This document shows positions 3,821-11,452 of a DNA stretch of 11,452 nt, piece after piece. The stretch covers positions 1 through 11,452 of the forward strand of contig URWL01000032.1 in NCBI GenBank assembly GCA_900551465.1. Reading direction: 5' to 3'. The number at the start of each line of letters is the position of its first letter. Within the stretch, counting starts at the first letter, position 1. Source of the DNA: an uncultured Blautia sp. Lineage in GTDB: Bacteria > Bacillota > Clostridia > Lachnospirales > Lachnospiraceae. The notes under the pieces are model-generated. The model was not told where the DNA came from. It ran no database searches and saw only the letters and a program-made list of their open reading frames with translations. The position numbers and the translations under genes are program-made.

Positions 3821-4801
3821 TCAGCCTCCTATCTGAGACATACAGAGTTTTTCTGTATCGTCCTCCTGTGCTTTTTCCATAAAATGATGTCCGTCCGGCT
3901 TCTCATTTAAAGCCTGCCGGATCACTTTTTTCAAGTCCTCATCAGATCCTCCGTTTCTCAGGATTTCTCTCAGATCTCTGCCTGCTGTGTACTGCAGACA
4001 TGTTTTCAGAAATCCCTGAGAAGTCAGACGGATACGGTTGCACTCCCCGCAGAACTTGTGACTGACTGCACTGATAAATCCCAGCTTACCCACAAATCCT
4101 TCTGCCTCATAATACCGGGAAGGCCCGTTTCCAAGCGGTTTTCCCTGATATATACTGAGCGGTCCAAATTTTTTTTCCAGAAGAGCAACCAGCTCCGTCT
4201 CTGACATCCCTTTAAATTCTGTTCCGCAGCCAATGGGCATCATCTCGATAAATCTTACATGAACAGGATATTTCCGTGCAAGCTCTGCTATCTGACAGAT
4301 GTCCTGTCCCTCTATGCCCAAAGGAACACAGTTGATTTTTACAGATACCTGCGGATACCGCAGGGCTTCCTGTATCCCTTCCAGGGACTGATCCAGAAGA
4401 TCTCTTCTGGCTATCTTTCTGAAACATTCTCTGTCCAGAGTATCCAGACTGATATTAACTGCATCCAGCCCTGCCTCTGCCAGATCTTTCATCTGTTCCT
4501 TTAAAAGAACACCGTTTGTCGTAAGTGTTACTTTCCGGATTCCCGGCAGCCGTTTGATCTGCTCTATCAGTTCCGGCATACGAACATGGATCAGAGGTTC
4601 TCCTCCGGTCAGCTTGATCTTGGTGATCCCAAGCTCTGCCATAACTCTGCAGATCCGTATGATCTCCTCCTCCCGAAGGATCAGAGAGCGGTCTACCAGC
4701 TTCACTCCATCCTCCGGCATACAGTAAATACAACGGAGATTGCAGCGGTCTGTTACCGAGATCCGCAGATAATCAATTGTTCTTCCACATCGGTCTATCA
4801 T
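3821..4801 (-). CDS. moaA: GTP 3',8-cyclase MoaA (radical SAM)
   Basis: This 326-residue protein has all MoaA hallmarks. The radical-SAM cluster motif is CNLRCIYC (C20, C24, C27), and the SAM-binding GGE is in LTGGEPL (64-70). The second, substrate-binding 4Fe-4S cluster is ligated by C251, C254 and C268 ([18 protein letters not shown]). The C-terminus ends in the double glycine (IGG) that inserts into the active site. With MoaC it converts GTP to cyclic pyranopterin monophosphate, the first committed step of molybdenum-cofactor synthesis, in the cytoplasm. Its ATG overlaps the moaC stop (ATGA, four bases), so the two are likely translationally coupled in the order of catalysis partners. All catalytic residues appear intact, and length is normal for the family. 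Confidence 0.96.
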
Positions 4802-5283
4802 TTTTCTTCAAAACGGAACACTCCGCTTTTTCCTCCTGTCTTCTCCACAAGATGTATCTCTGACATGACCATGTGCTTGTCAATCGCCTTGCACATGTCA
4901 TAAATCGTCAAAAGCGTTACCTGAACTCCGGTCAGCGCCTCCATCTCCACCCCGGTTTTTCCCTCTGTCTTTACCGTACAATATACGTGGATCCGGCTGT
5001 TTTCCTGATCCAGCTGAAAATCTACCGTACACTTCTGGATAGGCAGCGGATGGCACATGGGAATCAGAGAAGAGGTTTGCTTTACCCCCATGATCCCGGC
5101 CACTCTGGCCACTCCCAGAACATCGCCTTTTTTTATATTTCCTTCTGTGACAGCCGCCATGATCTCCGGCCCCACAGCAATATACCCGGTTGCTGCAGCA
5201 GTGCGGAAGGTGGGCGTCTTGTTGGAAACATCCACCATCACTGCATTCCCGTTTTTATCAAAATGGCTGAATTTCTTCCCCAT
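4798..5283 (-). CDS. moaC: Cyclic pyranopterin monophosphate synthase MoaC
   Basis: This 161-residue protein has the standard MoaC length and motifs. The N-terminal [17 protein letters not shown] is followed by the core [20 protein letters not shown], the active-site segment [10 protein letters not shown], the [12 protein letters not shown] stretch, and [11 protein letters not shown] near the C-terminus. MoaC rearranges the MoaA product 3',8-cH2GTP into cyclic pyranopterin monophosphate. The start at 5281-5283 is fixed by AGGAGGGG just upstream. A longer reading frame exists to 5430 but would translate through the metG terminator, so I reject it. It is the first gene of the operon, with a promoter of its own overlapping the metG terminator. 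The following moaA overlaps it by four bases. Confidence 0.96.
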
Positions 5284-5311
5284 TTTTATCCCCTCCTGTA
5301 TACTTCCCTTT

Positions 5312-5340
5312 AGTATAAAAAAAATCCCCGGTTCCGTCAA
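5312..5340 (-). promoter_or_regulatory. Putative promoter of the moaC-moaA-mogA-MOSC-tatD operon
   Basis: On the minus strand TTGACG (5335-5340) and TATACT (5312-5317) are separated by exactly 17 bases. Five of six bases match consensus at each element. The -35 lies in the loop and loop-side arm of the metG terminator, and the spacer holds the rest of that arm and the T-tract. Transcription would begin near 5304, giving a leader of only about 20 bases before moaC, too short for a molybdenum-cofactor riboswitch. Confidence 0.65.
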
Positions 5341-5355
5341 GTAACCGGAACCGGG
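5317..5355 (-). terminator. Intrinsic terminator of metG
   Basis: Perfect 10-bp arms CGGAACCGGG/CCCGGTTCCG (5346-5355 and 5327-5336 on the plus strand) enclose a nine-base loop. On the minus strand the stem is followed after GA by eight T residues (complement of 5317-5324). The plus strand has no T-tract, so it works in the metG direction only. It lies about 60 bases beyond the metG stop. Confidence 0.9.
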
Positions 5356-5413
5356 ATTGGATGAAATTTCTGTAAAATTTTGGTTTAACAAAAAATTATT
5401 TGTATTAATCTTA

Positions 5414-7363
5414 TCAGCAGATCTCTGCACCTGCAGGCATATTTTTCTCAGGAGCCATCAGGGCAAGATTTCCCTCTGCATCTTCTGCACAGAGGATCAT
5501 TCCCTCACTGAGCACTCCGGCAAGCTTAGCCGGTTTCAGGTTTGTTACTACCATTACCTTTTTGCCTACCATTTCCTCCGGAGTATAATGAGCCTTGATA
5601 CCGGATACAATCTGGCGGACCTGACTTCCGATCTTTACCTGAGAGCAAAGAAGTTTTTTGGATTTTTTCACTGCTTCGCAGGCAATGATCTCACCCACCT
5701 GGAACTGCAGCTTCTCAAAATCCTCAAATGTGATCTCTGCTTTCGGCTCAAGGTCGATTCCAGGTTCCTCTTCTTTTTCTTCCTGTACAGGCGGATGAAG
5801 TTCTTCTACCTTCGCCATTACTTCTTTCAGGTCAAGACGTGCAAACAGGATCTCCGGTTTCTCAACCACCTTATTTCCGGACGGATACAGACCGAAAGTC
5901 TTCAGAGATTCCAGATTGCGCTTCTCAGCATTCAACTGTGCAAGGATACGGTCTGTGGTATCCGGCATAAAAGCTTCCAGAAGAGCGGCACCAATAGTGA
6001 TTCCCTCAACCAGATTATAAAGAACAGTTGCAAGACGATCCTGCTTGTCCTCTTCCTTTGCAAGAGCCCATGGCATAGTCTCATCAATATATTTGTTCAG
6101 ACGTTTAAAGAGACTGAATACATCTGTCATAGCGTCTGCCACGCGAAGCTTATCCATTTTTGCAGATACTTTGGCCGGTATACCAAGCACAAAGGATTTC
6201 ATATCTTCATCAACCGGCTCTGTGACGCCCTTGTTCTCCACAACGCCGCCAAAATATTTATTTGACATGGAGATTGTACGGTTTACAAGGTTTCCAAGTG
6301 TGTTGGCAAGTTCTGAGTTCAGACGCTCTACCATCAGCTCCCATGTAATCACACCGTCGTTTTCAAAAGGCATCTCATGAAGCACGAAATAACGCACTGC
6401 ATCCACGCCAAAGAAATCTACCAGTTCGTCTGCATAGAGAACATTTCCCTTGGACTTACTCATCTTTCCATCGCCCTGAAGCAGCCACGGATGACCAAAT
6501 ACCTGCTTTGGAAGAGGCAGATCCAGTGACATCAGGAAAATTGGCCAGTAAATCGTATGGAAACGGATGATGTCCTTTCCGATCAGATGAAGGTCTGCCG
6601 GCCACAGCTTATTAAACTGCTCTGTGCTGTCACCATCGCAGTCATAACCGATTCCTGTAATATAGTTTGTAAGAGCGTCAAGCCATACATAAACCACATG
6701 CTTCGGATCAAAGTCTACCGGGATTCCCCATTTAAAAGATGTTCTGGATACACAAAGATCCTGCAGACCCGGAAGAAGGAAGTTGTTCATCATCTCATTT
6801 TTACGGGATTCCGGCTGAATAAATTCCGGATGTGTCTTAATATGCTCGATCAGACGATCGGCATATTTGCTCATTTTAAAGAAATATGCTTCTTCCTTTG
6901 CCGGAACACATGGACGTCCGCAGTCCGGACATTTTCCGTCTACCAGCTGGCTTTCTGTAAAGAAAGATTCACATGGAGTACAGTACATTCCCTCATAATG
7001 TCCCTTGTAAATATCTCCTTTTGCATACATTTTCTTAAAGATCTTCTGTACCTGTTTCTCATGATCTTCGTCTGTAGTACGGATAAATTTATCATAGGAA
7101 GTGTTCATCAGATCCCAGATATTTTTGATCTCACCGGAAACATTATCCACAAATTCCTTTGGTGTGATCCCTGCTTCCTCTGCCTTTAATTCGATCTTCT
7201 GTCCATGCTCATCTGTTCCGGTCTGAAAAAACACATCATAGCCTTCCAGCCTTTTATAGCGGGCAATAGCATCTGCCAGAACAGCCTCATAGGTATTTCC
7301 GATATGCGGCTTGCCGGAAGTGTAGGCAATGGCCGTTGTAATATAATATTTCTGTTTTTCCAT
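5414..7363 (-). CDS. metG: Methionyl-tRNA synthetase with C-terminal tRNA-binding domain
   Basis: This 649-residue class I synthetase charges tRNA-Met with methionine using ATP. The HIGH box appears as HIGN (20-23) and the KMSKS loop as KMSKS (300-304). A zinc knuckle with Cys pairs C128/C131 and C145/C148 sits in the connective insert. An anticodon-binding helical domain covers about 340-500, and then an acidic linker (about 525-540) leads to an EMAP/Trbp111-like tRNA-binding domain (about 545-649) that supports dimerisation and tRNA capture. Length and layout match the C-terminally extended enzyme of Clostridia. The start is backed by AGGAGG (7373-7378) nine bases upstream. It has its own promoter and terminator, so it is a single-gene unit despite the same-strand moa operon behind it. 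No T-box or SAM riboswitch is visible in its leader. Confidence 0.97.
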
Positions 7364-7402
7364 TATAAAAATCCTCCTGGGGGTATTTTGTAAATAATAA
7401 AC

Positions 7403-7435
7403 TGTCTCGGCAGCCGGATATACAGGCGCCGGACA
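7403..7435 (-). other. Hairpin in the metG 5' leader
   Basis: On the minus strand TGTC-CGGC-GCC pairs with GGC-GCCG-GACA around a nine-base loop, with two single-base bulges. It lies between the promoter and the ribosome site of metG. It is not followed by a clean T-tract and is too short for a T-box. Any regulatory role (stability or weak attenuation) is a guess. Confidence 0.35.
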
Positions 7436-7454
7436 AATGGAAATCGCTCCTTAA

Positions 7455-7483
7455 ATACTAGCATATTTAAAGGGATTTAGCAA
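7455..7483 (-). promoter_or_regulatory. Putative extended -10 promoter of metG
   Basis: TTGCTA (7478-7483) and TAGTAT (7455-7460) have a 17-base spacer, and a TG lies one base before the -10 (TGCTAGTAT), as in extended -10 promoters. The predicted leader is about 85 bases. Confidence 0.6.
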
Positions 7484-7507
7484 ATTAGATTTTTATAATA
7501 AGACAGA

Positions 7508-7726
7508 TCATAGATTCCTATCTGCACCTTCTATCCTTATGATCTCGTCTATGGAAACCTCCGTCATGTCAGAGATTTCTTCATAGGTAAATTGTTTTTT
7601 AGCCAAAAGCTTCCGGACAAATTTTCTTTCTGCGGATTTTATTCCATCCTCACGCCCTTCTTTGCGTCCTTCTTTGCGACCTTCCTCACGACCTTCCTCT
7701 TTCAGATCTTCCAATGCTTTGCACAT
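7508..7726 (-). CDS. Candidate nested small protein (RpnS-like) from internal start in the Rpn gene
   Basis: An in-frame ATG at 7724-7726 is preceded by GAGGAGGAGGTCAAT, containing two overlapping AGGAGG motifs five and eight bases from the start. This is stronger than the ribosome site of the full-length protein. The product would be the last 72 residues of the Rpn protein, starting MCKALEDLKEE. It holds the EGR/KEGR repeat and a C-terminal helical segment (FTYEEISDMTEVSIDEIIRI). In described rpn gene-within-gene loci the short C-terminal form neutralises the nuclease. Seen: the ribosome site, start codon and frame. Inferred: that it is made and acts as antitoxin. The alternative is that the Glu-Glu-Glu-Val codons create AGGAGG by chance. 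Confidence 0.5.
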   Translation of the reverse strand: MCKALEDLKEEGREEGRKEGRKEGREDGIKSAERKFVRKLLAKKQFTYEEISDMTEVSIDEIIRIEGADRNL

Positions 7727-8524
7727 ATTGACCTCCTCCTCTTTTTCATTGATCTTAAACTCGCTGCCTGTCATAATCTTTATCACCTGACTGGCCTTCT
7801 GCTCTACAGACAGAAATCGTGGATCTGTAGAAACAAGCTTCTGAAGCCGTTCCTTATCTTTTGAATATTTGATAAACAGCAGTACCTCCCTGAGACTGGA
7901 GTGGAAGTTCTCCATTTCTGTATCGGCAATACTGTGCGGAGAAATAAGGTTGATTCTGTAATCCGGAATGTAAGGAAGCAGTGCAGATTCTCTGATATCC
8001 AGCATATCATGGATCCCCAGGGGACCATCCCATTTATCCGGTCCAAAATACAGTACCAGGGTAATAACGGGAATCAGCCTGTCTTCTTTGTAAAAACCTG
8101 AAAGAAATTCCCCTGAACTTATCTTTTGTAAAAATTTCTTCCCATTATTTTTTGCTGCATTCATATGCCGTCTGTGTGCCCGGGCAATTTTATCCACCTG
8201 AGATGTATACTCCATGGAATCATAGAGCATATTTTTAACTGGCATGGCATAATGGATCTCAGACTGATCCTCCACTCCCAGAAGGAGATAAGCGGCCTCC
8301 TTATTCTGCATGGCCGCCAGATACTTAAAGTTATCACGGAATCTCTGAACCGGGTGTATCTTGCCATCCTCTCCATAGGGCAAAACAATCTCCACAGTAT
8401 CCAGCGGATAGAGGTCCTCTGGAGCGATCACCTGCTTTCCATGATAGATAAAATAATTAAATGCATCTGCAAAAATCCGCGGATCGTTCATATAATCTTT
8501 TGTAATCGTATCTTTTTTACCCAA
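7508..8524 (-). CDS. Rpn-family PD-(D/E)XK nuclease / putative transposase (RpnA-like)
   Basis: I read 338 residues from a TTG at 8522-8524, giving MGKKDTITKDYM, the usual N-terminus of Lachnospiraceae relatives; AGGTGG lies eight bases upstream. In-frame GTG codons at 8536 and 8533 overlap that ribosome site and are less likely. The N-terminal two thirds match the PD-(D/E)XK nuclease fold of the Rpn (recombination-promoting nuclease, Transposase_31/YhgA-like) family. Candidate catalytic residues are D64 in RFRDN and the E-x-Q triad E85-D86-Q87 in LLLGVEDQSEIHYAMPVKN. Residues 276-291 are a fourfold EEGR/KEGR repeat, followed by a helical end. Rpn proteins cleave DNA and promote RecA-independent recombination; some act as toxins held by a small protein translated from within the gene. 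Such an internal start is present here. It is a single gene with no inverted repeats or other IS parts nearby. Confidence 0.85.
   Translation of the reverse strand: MGKKDTITKDYMNDPRIFADAFNYFIYHGKQVIAPEDLYPLDTVEIVLPYGEDGKIHPVQRFRDNFKYLAAMQNKEAAYLLLGVEDQSEIHYAMPVKNMLYDSMEYTSQVDKIARAHRRHMNAAKNNGKKFLQKISSGEFLSGFYKEDRLIPVITLVLYFGPDKWDGPLGIHDMLDIRESALLPYIPDYRINLISPHSIADTEMENFHSSLREVLLFIKYSKDKERLQKLVSTDPRFLSVEQKASQVIKIMTGSEFKINEKEEEVNMCKALEDLKEEGREEGRKEGRKEGREDGIKSAERKFVRKLLAKKQFTYEEISDMTEVSIDEIIRIEGADRNL
7652..7699 (-). repeat. Four tandem 12-bp repeats encoding (E/K)EGR
   Basis: Read on the minus strand, the units are GAGGAAGGTCGT, GAGGAAGGTCGC, AAAGAAGGACGC and AAAGAAGGGCGT. Each encodes E/K-E-G-R, and a degenerate fifth unit encodes EDGI. 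The 12-base period keeps frame, so copy-number change would lengthen or shorten the tail without a frameshift. Such runs are typical of the Rpn C-terminus. Confidence 0.85.
7727..7740 (-). promoter_or_regulatory. Internal Shine-Dalgarno inside the Rpn gene
   Basis: The complement of 7732-7740 reads AGGAGGAGG and lies five bases before the in-frame ATG at 7726. It decides the internal start of the nested product. Confidence 0.55.
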
Positions 8525-8634
8525 ATTTATCACCACCTGTTAAGATTTTCAGCTGCTTCCATTCTTTAAATTGGGATTTTATTTTATGGAAGTTTATCTT
8601 AAGTAAGCGGCTCTCTCTGGTAAGAGCTGCTTTC

Positions 8635-8871: not shown

Positions 8872-8877
8872 CTGTTT

Positions 8878-9825
8878 TTATTTCAGATTTTCATGCTTCT
8901 TCAAAAATGCCACTGCGCCCAAAAGCCCGGCATTGTTTCCAAGCTCCGCAGCGCAAATATGGAGATTTTCCCGGAAACAGGGCATTACCTTCTTCAGGAT
9001 TTTTTCTTTCAGAGGACAGATAAACAATTCTTCCTGCTGGCTGACGCCGCCTCCGATGATCACAGTTTCCGGATTAAAAATGTGGATCAGTCCAATCAGC
9101 CCTACGGCAATATCCTGAATCCATTCATCCAGAATTTTCAAGATTTTCTGATTTCCTTCTGCTGCCTGACGAAAAATATATCTGCCGTCAATATCCGTAT
9201 CGGATAAGGTGTCAGAAAGTTCCTTCACCCGTCTTACCAGAGCCGTTGTAGACGCATAGCTTTCATAGCAGCCTGTATTTCCGCAGCTGCATGGAATTCC
9301 GTCTTTTTTTATGGTAAAATGCCCCAGTTCTCCGGCAATTCCTACTGATCCGGAAAGAAGCTGATCCTGTACAATGATCCCGCCTCCTACTCCGGTTCCT
9401 ACTGTGATCATGATCACATTGCAGCTGTCTTTTGCCGCTCCTTTCCACTGCTCTCCCATAACGGCACAGTTGGCATCATTTGTCACTGTGACCGGAAGAT
9501 GATAATGTTCCTCCAGAATTGTTTTTACAGGAGTTCCAAGCCAGTTGGCAATATGCCCTGCAGAGCCGGCCACAGTTCCCTCCTGCACATTGATCTGTCC
9601 GGTAGCAGAAACTCCAATCCCGGAAAGGTTTTCCACTGAAGTACCAATGCGTTTCAGAAAAATGTCTGTATTTTTTACTACAGTTTCAATGATAGGTGTC
9701 TGATATCCATCAAAGCTGACAGAAAAAGAATCCATTTCCAGGATATCTCCATCGCTGTTCACAAGACCGATCTTTGCCGCTGTTCCCCCAATATCAATAC
9801 CCAGAAATATTTTATTTGTCTGCAT
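8878..9825 (-). CDS. nanK: ROK-family sugar kinase, probable N-acetylmannosamine kinase NanK
   Basis: This 315-residue ROK kinase shows the ATP-phosphate motif DIGGT (11-15), the catalytic Asp in TNDAN (D117), the ATP-binding GTGVGGG (143-149), and the ROK zinc site H169 in ELGHF plus C179, C181 and C186 in CSCGNTGC. A second nucleotide-binding GGG is at 258-260. There is no N-terminal helix-turn-helix, so it is a kinase and not a ROK repressor. It overlaps nanE by 14 bases and has AAGGA before its ATG, so they are co-translated. The kinase that feeds NanE phosphorylates ManNAc at C6, hence the NanK proposal. ROK substrate specificity cannot be read from these motifs; glucokinase or N-acetylglucosamine kinase activity is the main alternative. 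Confidence 0.88.
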   Translation of the reverse strand: MQTNKIFLGIDIGGTAAKIGLVNSDGDILEMDSFSVSFDGYQTPIIETVVKNTDIFLKRIGTSVENLSGIGVSATGQINVQEGTVAGSAGHIANWLGTPVKTILEEHYHLPVTVTNDANCAVMGEQWKGAAKDSCNVIMITVGTGVGGGIIVQDQLLSGSVGIAGELGHFTIKKDGIPCSCGNTGCYESYASTTALVRRVKELSDTLSDTDIDGRYIFRQAAEGNQKILKILDEWIQDIAVGLIGLIHIFNPETVIIGGGVSQQEELFICPLKEKILKKVMPCFRENLHICAAELGNNAGLLGAVAFLKKHENLK

Positions 9826-10531
9826 TGTGATATTCCTTCACTCTGTTGATAAAGCGGGTGGCAATCTCCAGCGGCCGTGTGATCGCCCCTCCTACTACAA
9901 CGGCATAAGCGCCTGCCTCCAGCATCTGCACTGCCTCATCCGGATAGTGCACCTTACCTTCTGCAATCACAGGAATATCAATTGTTTCCGAAAGCTTTTT
10001 CACCAGCTCCACATCCGGTCCGTCCACCTTCGGAGAATAGTCCGTATATCCGCTTAATGTGGTTCCCACAAAATCCACGCCGCATTTCCATGCGTTTACA
10101 CCCTCTTCATAAGTAGAAATATCCGCCATAAGCACAACGTCCGGATATTTTTCTTTGATCTGGGCGATAAATTCATTAATGGTAGATCCATCTCCTCTTC
10201 TTCTCATGGTGCAGTCCAGTGCAATGATATCTGCATCTGCTGCGTAAAGCTCATCTACTTCTTTCATAGTGGGTGTAATGTAGGAATCATAACCGTCATA
10301 AACAATCTTGATGATTCCGATTACCGGAAGATCCGTTTCTTCTTTGATTGCCAGCACATCCCTGATACTGCTGGTGCGGATACAGGGCGAGCCTGCCTGC
10401 TTGGCAGCCCGGGCCATCAGATACATAATTGATTTTTCTTCCACATAAAGGGGTTCAGAAGGAAGAGCCTGACAGGAAACGATCAGCTGTCCTTTGATCC
10501 TCTCGAGGATTTCTTGTTTAGAATACCTCAT
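9812..10531 (-). CDS. nanE: N-acetylmannosamine-6-phosphate 2-epimerase NanE
   Basis: This 239-residue (beta/alpha)8 barrel matches NanE. Signatures are GQLIVSCQALP (14-24) near the N-terminus, the active-site strand IGIIKIVYDGYDSYITPT (71-88) with likely catalytic Lys75, ALDCTMRRR (104-112), DFVGTTLSGYT (153-163), the second catalytic residue Glu191 in VIAEGK, and the phosphate-binding VVVGGAITRP (211-220). Lys75 and Glu191 are assigned by analogy with the Clostridium perfringens enzyme. It converts ManNAc-6-P to GlcNAc-6-P, linking sialic-acid catabolism to amino-sugar metabolism. AGGTGG precedes the ATG. A ROK kinase follows with overlap, and an RpiR regulator lies upstream on the same strand. 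The lyase NanA, a transporter and a sialidase are not in the window. Confidence 0.95.
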   Translation of the reverse strand: MRYSKQEILERIKGQLIVSCQALPSEPLYVEEKSIMYLMARAAKQAGSPCIRTSSIRDVLAIKEETDLPVIGIIKIVYDGYDSYITPTMKEVDELYAADADIIALDCTMRRRGDGSTINEFIAQIKEKYPDVVLMADISTYEEGVNAWKCGVDFVGTTLSGYTDYSPKVDGPDVELVKKLSETIDIPVIAEGKVHYPDEAVQMLEAGAYAVVVGGAITRPLEIATRFINRVKEYHNADK

Positions 10532-10570
10532 AAAAGTCCACCTCCGTAAAAATACCTATATTTTTATCTT

Positions 10571-10604
10571 TACCATACATCATTTTCGTCAAAATAACAA
10601 TAGA
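10571..10604 (-). promoter_or_regulatory. Possible nanE promoter
   Basis: Two overlapping readings exist on the minus strand. One is TTGTTA, 17 bases, TATGGT (four of six matches each). The other is TTGACG, followed 16-17 bases later by a poor -10 (TAAAGA or AGATAA). Neither is decisive, which would fit a promoter that needs an activator. Both lie just downstream of the two palindromes at 10625-10659. Confidence 0.35.
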
Positions 10605-10624
10605 TAATACCTGCATTAAGAAAA

Positions 10625-10659
10625 TAATTTTTAAAATTACTAAATTATAAAAATAATTT
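10625..10659. promoter_or_regulatory. Two adjacent AT-rich palindromes, candidate RpiR operators
   Basis: TAATTTT-T-AAAATTA (10625-10639) and AAATTAT-AAAA-ATAATTT (10642-10659) are both perfect inverted repeats with 7-bp arms, with centres about 18-19 bases apart. They lie between rpiR and nanE, upstream of the possible nanE promoter, where an RpiR-family dimer would act. The AT-rich composition makes chance palindromes plausible. Confidence 0.35.
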
Positions 10660-11452
10660 CACAGCAATTTTCTGGAAACCGCCTGAGAAGTCGCATCCCT
10701 GAATGCAGAATTTTCTTCTGCATTTCTGCCGCAATAGGTATTAAACAGACAGTCGATCAAAAACATCTGTCCCATTTTCGCCGCAACAGAACCTGACTGC
10801 AGAGGATTTTCATTATATCCACAGATCAGACTTACATCTGCAAAACTGGCAGCCAGAGATTTTCGAAAATGTGTAATAAGGATAATGGGAATATGACGTT
10901 CGCTGGCAAGATCCAGCACCTCTTTCATATCTCTGGTAGATCCGGAATAAGAAAAAAACAAGATCACGTCTCCCGGTGTCATAAGGGCTGCTGCTATGGT
11001 CTGCATATGAGAATCCTCAATATGGATAAACTTTGTTGTTACTGTAGAAAACAAAGCCCAGGCTTCTTTTGCCATTACCATGCTGCCGCCCTGGCCAAAA
11101 CAGTAAACATGTCGGGCATTTACCAGCAGATCTACAGCAGTCTTTAATGAAAACGGATCCAGCTGGGCAATGGTATCATTCAAAGAAGAAAGATAGGAGT
11201 CTCTCAGCTTTCTGCACATATTTTCCAATGCTGCACTGTCACTGACAGAAGTAAAGGCTGATTCAAAATCTTCTGATGAATTCGCCCGGTCTGATTTTGC
11301 AAGAGCCAGCTTAAGTTCATGATAACCGCTTAATCCCATCATACGGCAGAAACGCGTAATAGTAGCTTCTGACACACCTGAGTTTTCTGCAAGTGAACTA
11401 ATAGACAGATACTGAGTTTCTGCTGTATTGGATAAAATATAATTTGCCAGCT
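10659..11452 (-). CDS. RpiR/MurR-family regulator with SIS domain (5' end cut by window edge)
   Basis: 263 residues are visible and the frame stays open to the right edge, so the true start is outside the window (family length about 280). The N-terminal HTH_6 domain has its recognition region at ENSGVSEATITRFCRMMG (22-39). The C-terminal SIS phosphosugar-binding domain runs about 105-240, with VYCFGQGGS (115-123) and the phosphate-contact loop FFSYSGSTRD (165-174). RpiR-type regulators sense phosphorylated sugars; next to nanE the likely ligand is ManNAc-6-P or GlcNAc-6-P (inference). The apparent start at 11375 is a GTG within the DNA-binding helix and is not real. There is a 127-base gap to nanE on the same strand, with no GC-rich terminator, so read-through from rpiR into nanE is possible. 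Confidence 0.9.
   Translation of the reverse strand, partial: LANYILSNTAETQYLSISSLAENSGVSEATITRFCRMMGLSGYHELKLALAKSDRANSSEDFESAFTSVSDSAALENMCRKLRDSYLSSLNDTIAQLDPFSLKTAVDLLVNARHVYCFGQGGSMVMAKEAWALFSTVTTKFIHIEDSHMQTIAAALMTPGDVILFFSYSGSTRDMKEVLDLASERHIPIILITHFRKSLAASFADVSLICGYNENPLQSGSVAAKMGQMFLIDCLFNTYCGRNAEENSAFRDATSQAVSRKLL

Follow-up and report, generated by a model that had tools for sequence, protein, structure and literature searches.

The rpn gene on the minus strand of an 11,452-nucleotide stretch of DNA from an uncultured Blautia sp. (contig URWL01000032.1; the whole stretch is referred to here as the window) is very probably a gene-within-gene toxin-antitoxin module, a reading to which we assign a probability of roughly 0.87. 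One reading frame would encode both the 338-amino-acid DNA nuclease RpnL, translated from a weak TTG start, and RpnS, a 72-amino-acid C-terminal protein that would be translated from a strong internal pair of Shine-Dalgarno sequence (SD) and ATG. Comparison with homologues provides evolutionary evidence that, in a large family of gut bacteria, selection has acted to conserve this internal start as a sequence element, because relatives keep both the start codon and the SD beyond what synonymous recoding yields, and do so across changes of the codon phase in which the SD is written.

The original prediction, made from the letters of the window, had placed two overlapping AGGAGG motifs five and eight bases before an in-frame ATG at 7726. 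This is exact on the minus-strand reading (GAAAAAG AGGAGGAGG TCAAT ATG TGC), the two copies ending 8 and 5 bases 5′ of the A of the ATG. The short product had been expected to hold the EGR repeats and the C-terminal helices, and both the EGRE/EGRK units and the modelled helices indeed lie within the predicted 72 residues. A start of the full-length protein at TTG had also been proposed; the mechanically assigned start of the open reading frame (ORF) is a GTG at 8536, and the start in agreement with the SD and with the relatives is the TTG at 8524-8522.

Homologues were drawn from genome collections, with part of the listed matches fetched and few candidates scored per genome; matches were present in at least 86 of 299, 59 of 397 and 73 of 397 genomes, these being draws from larger, overlapping groups. 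The 251 profile-matching ORFs of at least 190 amino acids were reduced to 193 distinct sequences by removal of copies. The internal-start column was usable in 188 of these (five have no residue there), and 175 entered the count of toxin starts, 18 being excluded for a missing N-terminus or a position at an edge. An earlier first set comprised 147 homologues, and 106 representatives share less than 60% identity. Since related sequences are not independent, P values are to be taken as guides only, and the phase changes and the representatives below 60% identity are the safer evidence. Because only 3 of 299 genomes of the wider phylum, including G001, contained the subfamily of the window, the strict column test was restricted to one bacterial family. 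Among the matches listed for the wider phylum, all 34 loci had a late in-frame start with an SD of −6.5 or better and 17 of the 34 had such a start in mid-gene, a result that is suggestive only, as this set contains wrong or broken ORFs and one locus twice.

In the internal-start column the codon was ATG in 162, GTG in 22, GTA in two and TTA in two of the 188 sequences. Thus, 184 carry ATG or GTG, and the remaining four have an in-frame start two to three codons upstream (ATG in L065, L068 and L124, GTG in L116). Valine in this column was encoded by GTG in 22 of 24 cases. In the first set this applied to 20 of 21 column valines vs. 152 of 440 other valines of the same genes (P ~8e-9, uncorrected for shared ancestry), and among the representatives to 12 of 13 (P 2.5e-5). 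The other most conserved methionine columns, when substituted, mostly shift to assorted leucine codons.

The SD in front of this column had a mean energy of −10.9, compared to −8.2 for synonymous recodings (z −15.7, n = 184), and was stronger than the mean of the gene's own recodings in 178 of 184 genes; it reached −8 or better in 180, with −5.9 as the weakest value. For the 106 representatives, the mean was −10.8 vs. −6.0 in 3492 windows of the same genes rich in Glu, Lys, Gly and Arg, and glutamate at positions −5 to −3 was encoded by GAG in 79 of 113 cases vs. 1314 of 3588 elsewhere. The excess per gene is modest, with only 22 of 147 genes exceeding 95% of their own recodings.

The codon phase of the SD was compared in 173 genes, in which it encodes Glu-Glu (84), Gly-Gly (76) or neither (9), with four genes unscored. 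Parsimony on a tree built from the nuclease part with FastTree required at least 36 changes between the Glu-Glu and Gly-Gly phases, a count that rests on a quick tree and on manual assignment of the SD register, errors in both of which may inflate it. Shuffled phase labels gave a mean of 53 changes and a lowest value of 45, so that the phase partly follows descent. As judged from these comparisons, the start signal is preserved through substitutions in the amino acids that it overlaps. A comparison of exactly this kind, asking whether conservation of SD and start exceeds the demands of the encoded residues, had been suggested along with the original prediction, and such conservation was found; homologues that keep the Glu-rich protein and lose the ribosome site were not seen, the Glu-rich letters varying while ribosome site and start persist.

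The name Rpn (PF04754/TIGR01784, COG5464) was assigned on the basis of the Pfam match, the catalytic motif, the overall anatomy and a few source names of homologues, with the cut-off of TIGR01784 being missed (see below). PF04754 (Transposase_31) matched residues 150-243 with an E value of 2.4e-6 and 27.7 bits against a cut-off of 21. Residues D21, D65, E86 and Q88 were invariant in all 59 rows of the homologue alignment and are counterparts, matched by order and spacing only, of RpnA D11, D63, E82 and Q84; the RpnA mutants D11A, D63A, E82A and Q84K have lost activity.

In Zhong et al. (2023; PMC10327210), rpn genes are described to encode RpnL toxins together with RpnS antitoxins from internal starts, with RpnS demonstrated for five Escherichia coli genes and for one Clostridioides difficile gene expressed in E. 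coli. RpnS proteins prevent RpnL from inhibiting growth, inducing the SOS response and cleaving DNA, the proteins carry variable four-residue repeats, and RpnP2 protects against phage. The background given with the original prediction, a nuclease toxin with an internally started antitoxin and a link to phage defense, is thus correct (PMC10327210). By its sequence, the window locus joins these already published genes-within-genes. Like the E. coli systems (RpnA-E, RpnP2), it encodes an Rpn nuclease, contains an internal SD-ATG from which a small C-terminal protein would start, has variable tetrapeptide repeats (starting at residue 11 in the window and 8-20 residues past the internal Met in E. 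coli) and specifies a three-helix C-terminal domain. In contrast to E. coli rpn genes, for which an internal transcription start is described, no sigma-70-like promoter signal was detected in the window family, and the window protein further differs by its low similarity to the TIGR01784 model and by a function assigned here from sequence alone. The C. difficile gene, likewise from a Gram-positive but a different organism, is likened by published description and not by sequence; its RpnS was lost in E. coli when the internal start and the ribosome site predicted for it were altered. The same source mentions Cas10d/Cas11d of type I-D CRISPR systems, where a small subunit also arises from an internal in-frame start, Cas11d being a cooperating subunit, unlike the inhibitor RpnS. 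Literature listings covering RpnL/RpnS as well as near-cognate starts of toxins contained no paper on rpn internal starts beyond PMC10327210, the supplement of which lay outside the comparison.

By analogy with these systems, RpnS of the window would be made, would bind and inhibit RpnL, and the pair would act against phages. RpnS is predicted to share with RpnL both the repeat helix and a C-terminal bundle resembling a helix-turn-helix. Via the repeat helix it should pair with RpnL and thereby keep the nuclease inactive; a trigger, for instance infection by a phage, would then release the nuclease. In the model of the full-length protein, helices span residues 268-309, 315-322 and 326-338, the first one starting at the internal Met. 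The number of tetrapeptide units differs between the window, L001, L002 and L004, and since RpnL and RpnS share their C-terminus, changes in repeat number would alter both proteins together. In L003 (3787-3993), the nuclease part of which is 77% identical to that of L002, the C-terminal domain beyond the repeat bears no apparent relation to that of L002, which suggests an exchange of the antitoxin domain at this site.

Three other explanations were weighed. According to one, AGGAGG and ATG are by-products of a Glu-rich linker and of a structurally needed Met, and no internal start exists. An SD at least as strong does arise in 15% of synonymous recodings of the window gene (n = 100), and therefore the window by itself is no proof of selection on the SD; another Met column of the nuclease is also equally conserved (94 of 103 Met). 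Against this, the SD stays when Glu-Glu becomes Gly-Gly or Lys-Gly, its strength far exceeds that found in stretches of equal charge, and column valines are nearly always GTG, while other conserved Met columns shift mostly to mixed leucine codons. The Val-codon, recoding and codon-phase tests led us to reject a linker by-product as very unlikely. It is improbable, too, that the short protein is made and acts mainly as something other than an inhibitor, be it a structural partner of RpnL, comparable to Cas11d with Cas10d, or a DNA-binding autoregulator using its TrpR-like C-terminal helices. The published RpnS proteins block all three RpnL effects named above (PMC10327210), and the SD-start and open short frame are kept in 13 of the 16 copies examined whose nuclease half is disrupted or absent (L004, L005, L011, L028, L036, L048, L082, L089, L106, L115, L194, L216 and L229), which fits an antitoxin better than a mere partner. 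These 16 copies are a hand-picked, non-random selection from search tables, L082, L089 and L106 may lack the N-terminus for other reasons, and the SD-start pattern search found no internal gene in L016, L086 and L165.

Broken copies also lend some weight to the view that the window rpn is a decaying remnant with an already inactive nuclease and with RpnS retained as residual immunity. Besides several other related copies, the syntenic L004 from a close relative is broken. Its neighbor protein, presumably methionyl-tRNA-synthetase-like, is 99% identical to that of the window, and the DNA is 92% identical over window positions 4521-8109, 91% over 8235-8613 and 88% over 8874-11450. L004 (2900-3420) lacks the 125 bases matching window 8110-8234, by which its nuclease frame is shifted, and it retains SD, ATG and a 76-amino-acid short ORF, a pattern that also counts in favor of the toxin-antitoxin module. 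The window ORF, on the other hand, is intact with all four presumed catalytic residues, as is L001 (89% DNA identity), and decay of the window gene is accordingly unlikely.

Several further observations weigh against the toxin-antitoxin module itself. The window protein scored 23.6 bits with TIGR01784, below the curated cut-off of 52.1, and on this score its subfamily is divergent from that model. Upstream of the internal start, sigma-70-like promoters, the only type considered, scored 8.18 vs. 8.14 after recoding (187 genes). RpnS modelled alone was of low confidence across the repeat part (mean pLDDT 71.6). L164 (1290-1352) has a whole nuclease part with only 20 residues past the internal start, and the resulting absence of the C-terminus from both forms is at odds with an antitoxin that could never be dispensed with. 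Short C-termini (34-43 amino acids) in L057, L105 and L140 lie near contig ends.

The aspect most worth following is the unequal start of the toxin. The best-supported toxin start was ATG in 118, TTG in 26 and GTG in 16 of 175 genes, with none in 15. Two neighbor genes in the window, presumably metG-like and ROK-kinase-like, served as controls with their 30 best loci each in the same family and gave ATG in 56, TTG in one and GTG in two cases, the remaining locus having an ATG slightly below the SD threshold. For ATG vs. non-ATG, rpn differed from these neighbors with a Fisher P of ~1e-5 (the table was off by one, 57/56 for 56/57, with P substantively unaffected). TTG was found at 26 of 160 toxin starts vs. 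0 of 184 internal starts (Fisher P 7e-10), and at none of the 188 columns. Full-length starts therefore look weakened. The original prediction that translation is skewed towards the small form finds support in the sequence, as the SD pairing energy is −13.0 kcal/mol at the internal ATG vs. −10.2 at the TTG and as opening the internal site costs less than opening the toxin site in 70 of 96 representatives (means 4.1 vs. 7.0 kcal/mol); this support does not extend to accessibility in the window, where the two sites are near-equal (5.5 vs. 5.9 kcal/mol). Of 96 representatives, 10 carried a CTCCT at a distance of 18-60 bases 5′ of the toxin start (1.3% for shuffled leaders), and one carried it ahead of the internal start. 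Sequences of this type stand just 5′ of the rpnL SD in L022, L072, L080, L084, L109 and L164; such a leader could pair with the SD as a hairpin and hide it.

In 12 genes a near-cognate codon occupies the place of the toxin start behind an SD of −9.6 to −11.7, namely ATA in L025, L027, L029, L053, L061 and L245, ACG in L097, L099, L112, L137 and L202, and TTA in L003. Ten of these belong to the 15 genes without a scored start, together with L046, L182 and L210 (ATG with weak SD), L115 (a stop as second codon) and L126; L097 and L112 had entered the count as GTG. L027 has no canonical start in frame upstream or within the next 24 codons. The nuclease parts of L029 and L061, both ATA, differ by a dN of 0.12 and a dS of 1.28, and the ACG genes L097, L099 and L137 differ by a dN of ~0.2, their dS being high or too large to estimate. 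As dN is low relative to dS, these frames are under selection as proteins, and the near-cognate state requires at least seven changes on the tree. Use of these codons is called into question by the upstream GTG (with weaker SD) and identical nuclease parts of L097 and L112, the 98% identity of L137 and L202, the weak-SD ATG three codons past the conserved Asp in L053, and the upstream canonical codons with weak SDs in L025 and L245; in L003, the TTA may reflect no more than loss of the start.

Tentatively, and with less than even odds, the toxin:antitoxin ratio might be set by two unequal starts in one frame, an ATG or GTG for the antitoxin behind a strong SD, retained by selection across changes of its codon phase, and a toxin start weakened by TTG or GTG, in some genes by leaders that may hide the SD and, for a number of lineages, by near-cognate codons (AUA, ACG and perhaps UUA). 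Toxins with such starts would then be mis-annotated or missed, since gene finders reject near-cognate codons. If initiation does occur at AUA and ACG, a toxin that cuts DNA would be shown to carry a safety catch at the level of translation, and a part of such genes would escape annotation pipelines.

Coordinates of the rpn locus in the window.
Feature	Position	Strand	Remark
rpnL, full-length Rpn PD-(D/E)XK nuclease, 338 amino acids, TTG start	7508..8524	-	PF04754 match; start chosen from SD and relatives
TTG start codon of rpnL	8522..8524	-	aligned codon TTG in L001, ATG in L002, TTA in L003
SD-like AGGTGG of rpnL, within AGGTGGTGATAAAT-TTG	8533..8538	-	kept in L001, L002 and L003; pairing −10.2 kcal/mol
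Stretch with invariant D21, D65, E86, Q88, presumed PD-(D/E)XK core	8264..8467	-	numbering from N1 at 8527
Internal SD, two overlapping AGGAGG (7740-7735, 7737-7732), AGGAGGAGG	7732..7740	-	under selection in the family in excess of codon requirements, as judged from homologues
Internal ATG start of rpnS, in frame with rpn	7724..7726	-	conserved column in homologues
rpnS, 72-amino-acid C-terminal product MCKALEDL..., predicted antitoxin	7508..7726	-	C-terminal helices in model
Four EGRx tetrapeptide units, first helix of RpnS	7649..7696	-	unit number varies among relatives

A pattern scan of the window found no promoter on the minus strand directly upstream of 7726, no Rfam element reached its gathering threshold in the window, and no relatives were found in viral contigs. 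A search of solved structures by sequence returned two unrelated matches (best E 0.13), and Foldseek gave nothing significant among the matches listed; RpnA-S was absent from these, which is uninformative. The pattern AGGAGGN4-10ATG occurs five times in the window, with 1.1 expected. Besides the rpnS site, two occurrences are starts of listed ORFs (3818, 7363), and a third, at 5283, is an in-frame ATG 49 codons inside a listed ORF, which we take as the true start of that ORF. At 2219-2236, AGGAGG and a well-spaced ATG lie out of frame within another minus-strand gene, probably by chance.
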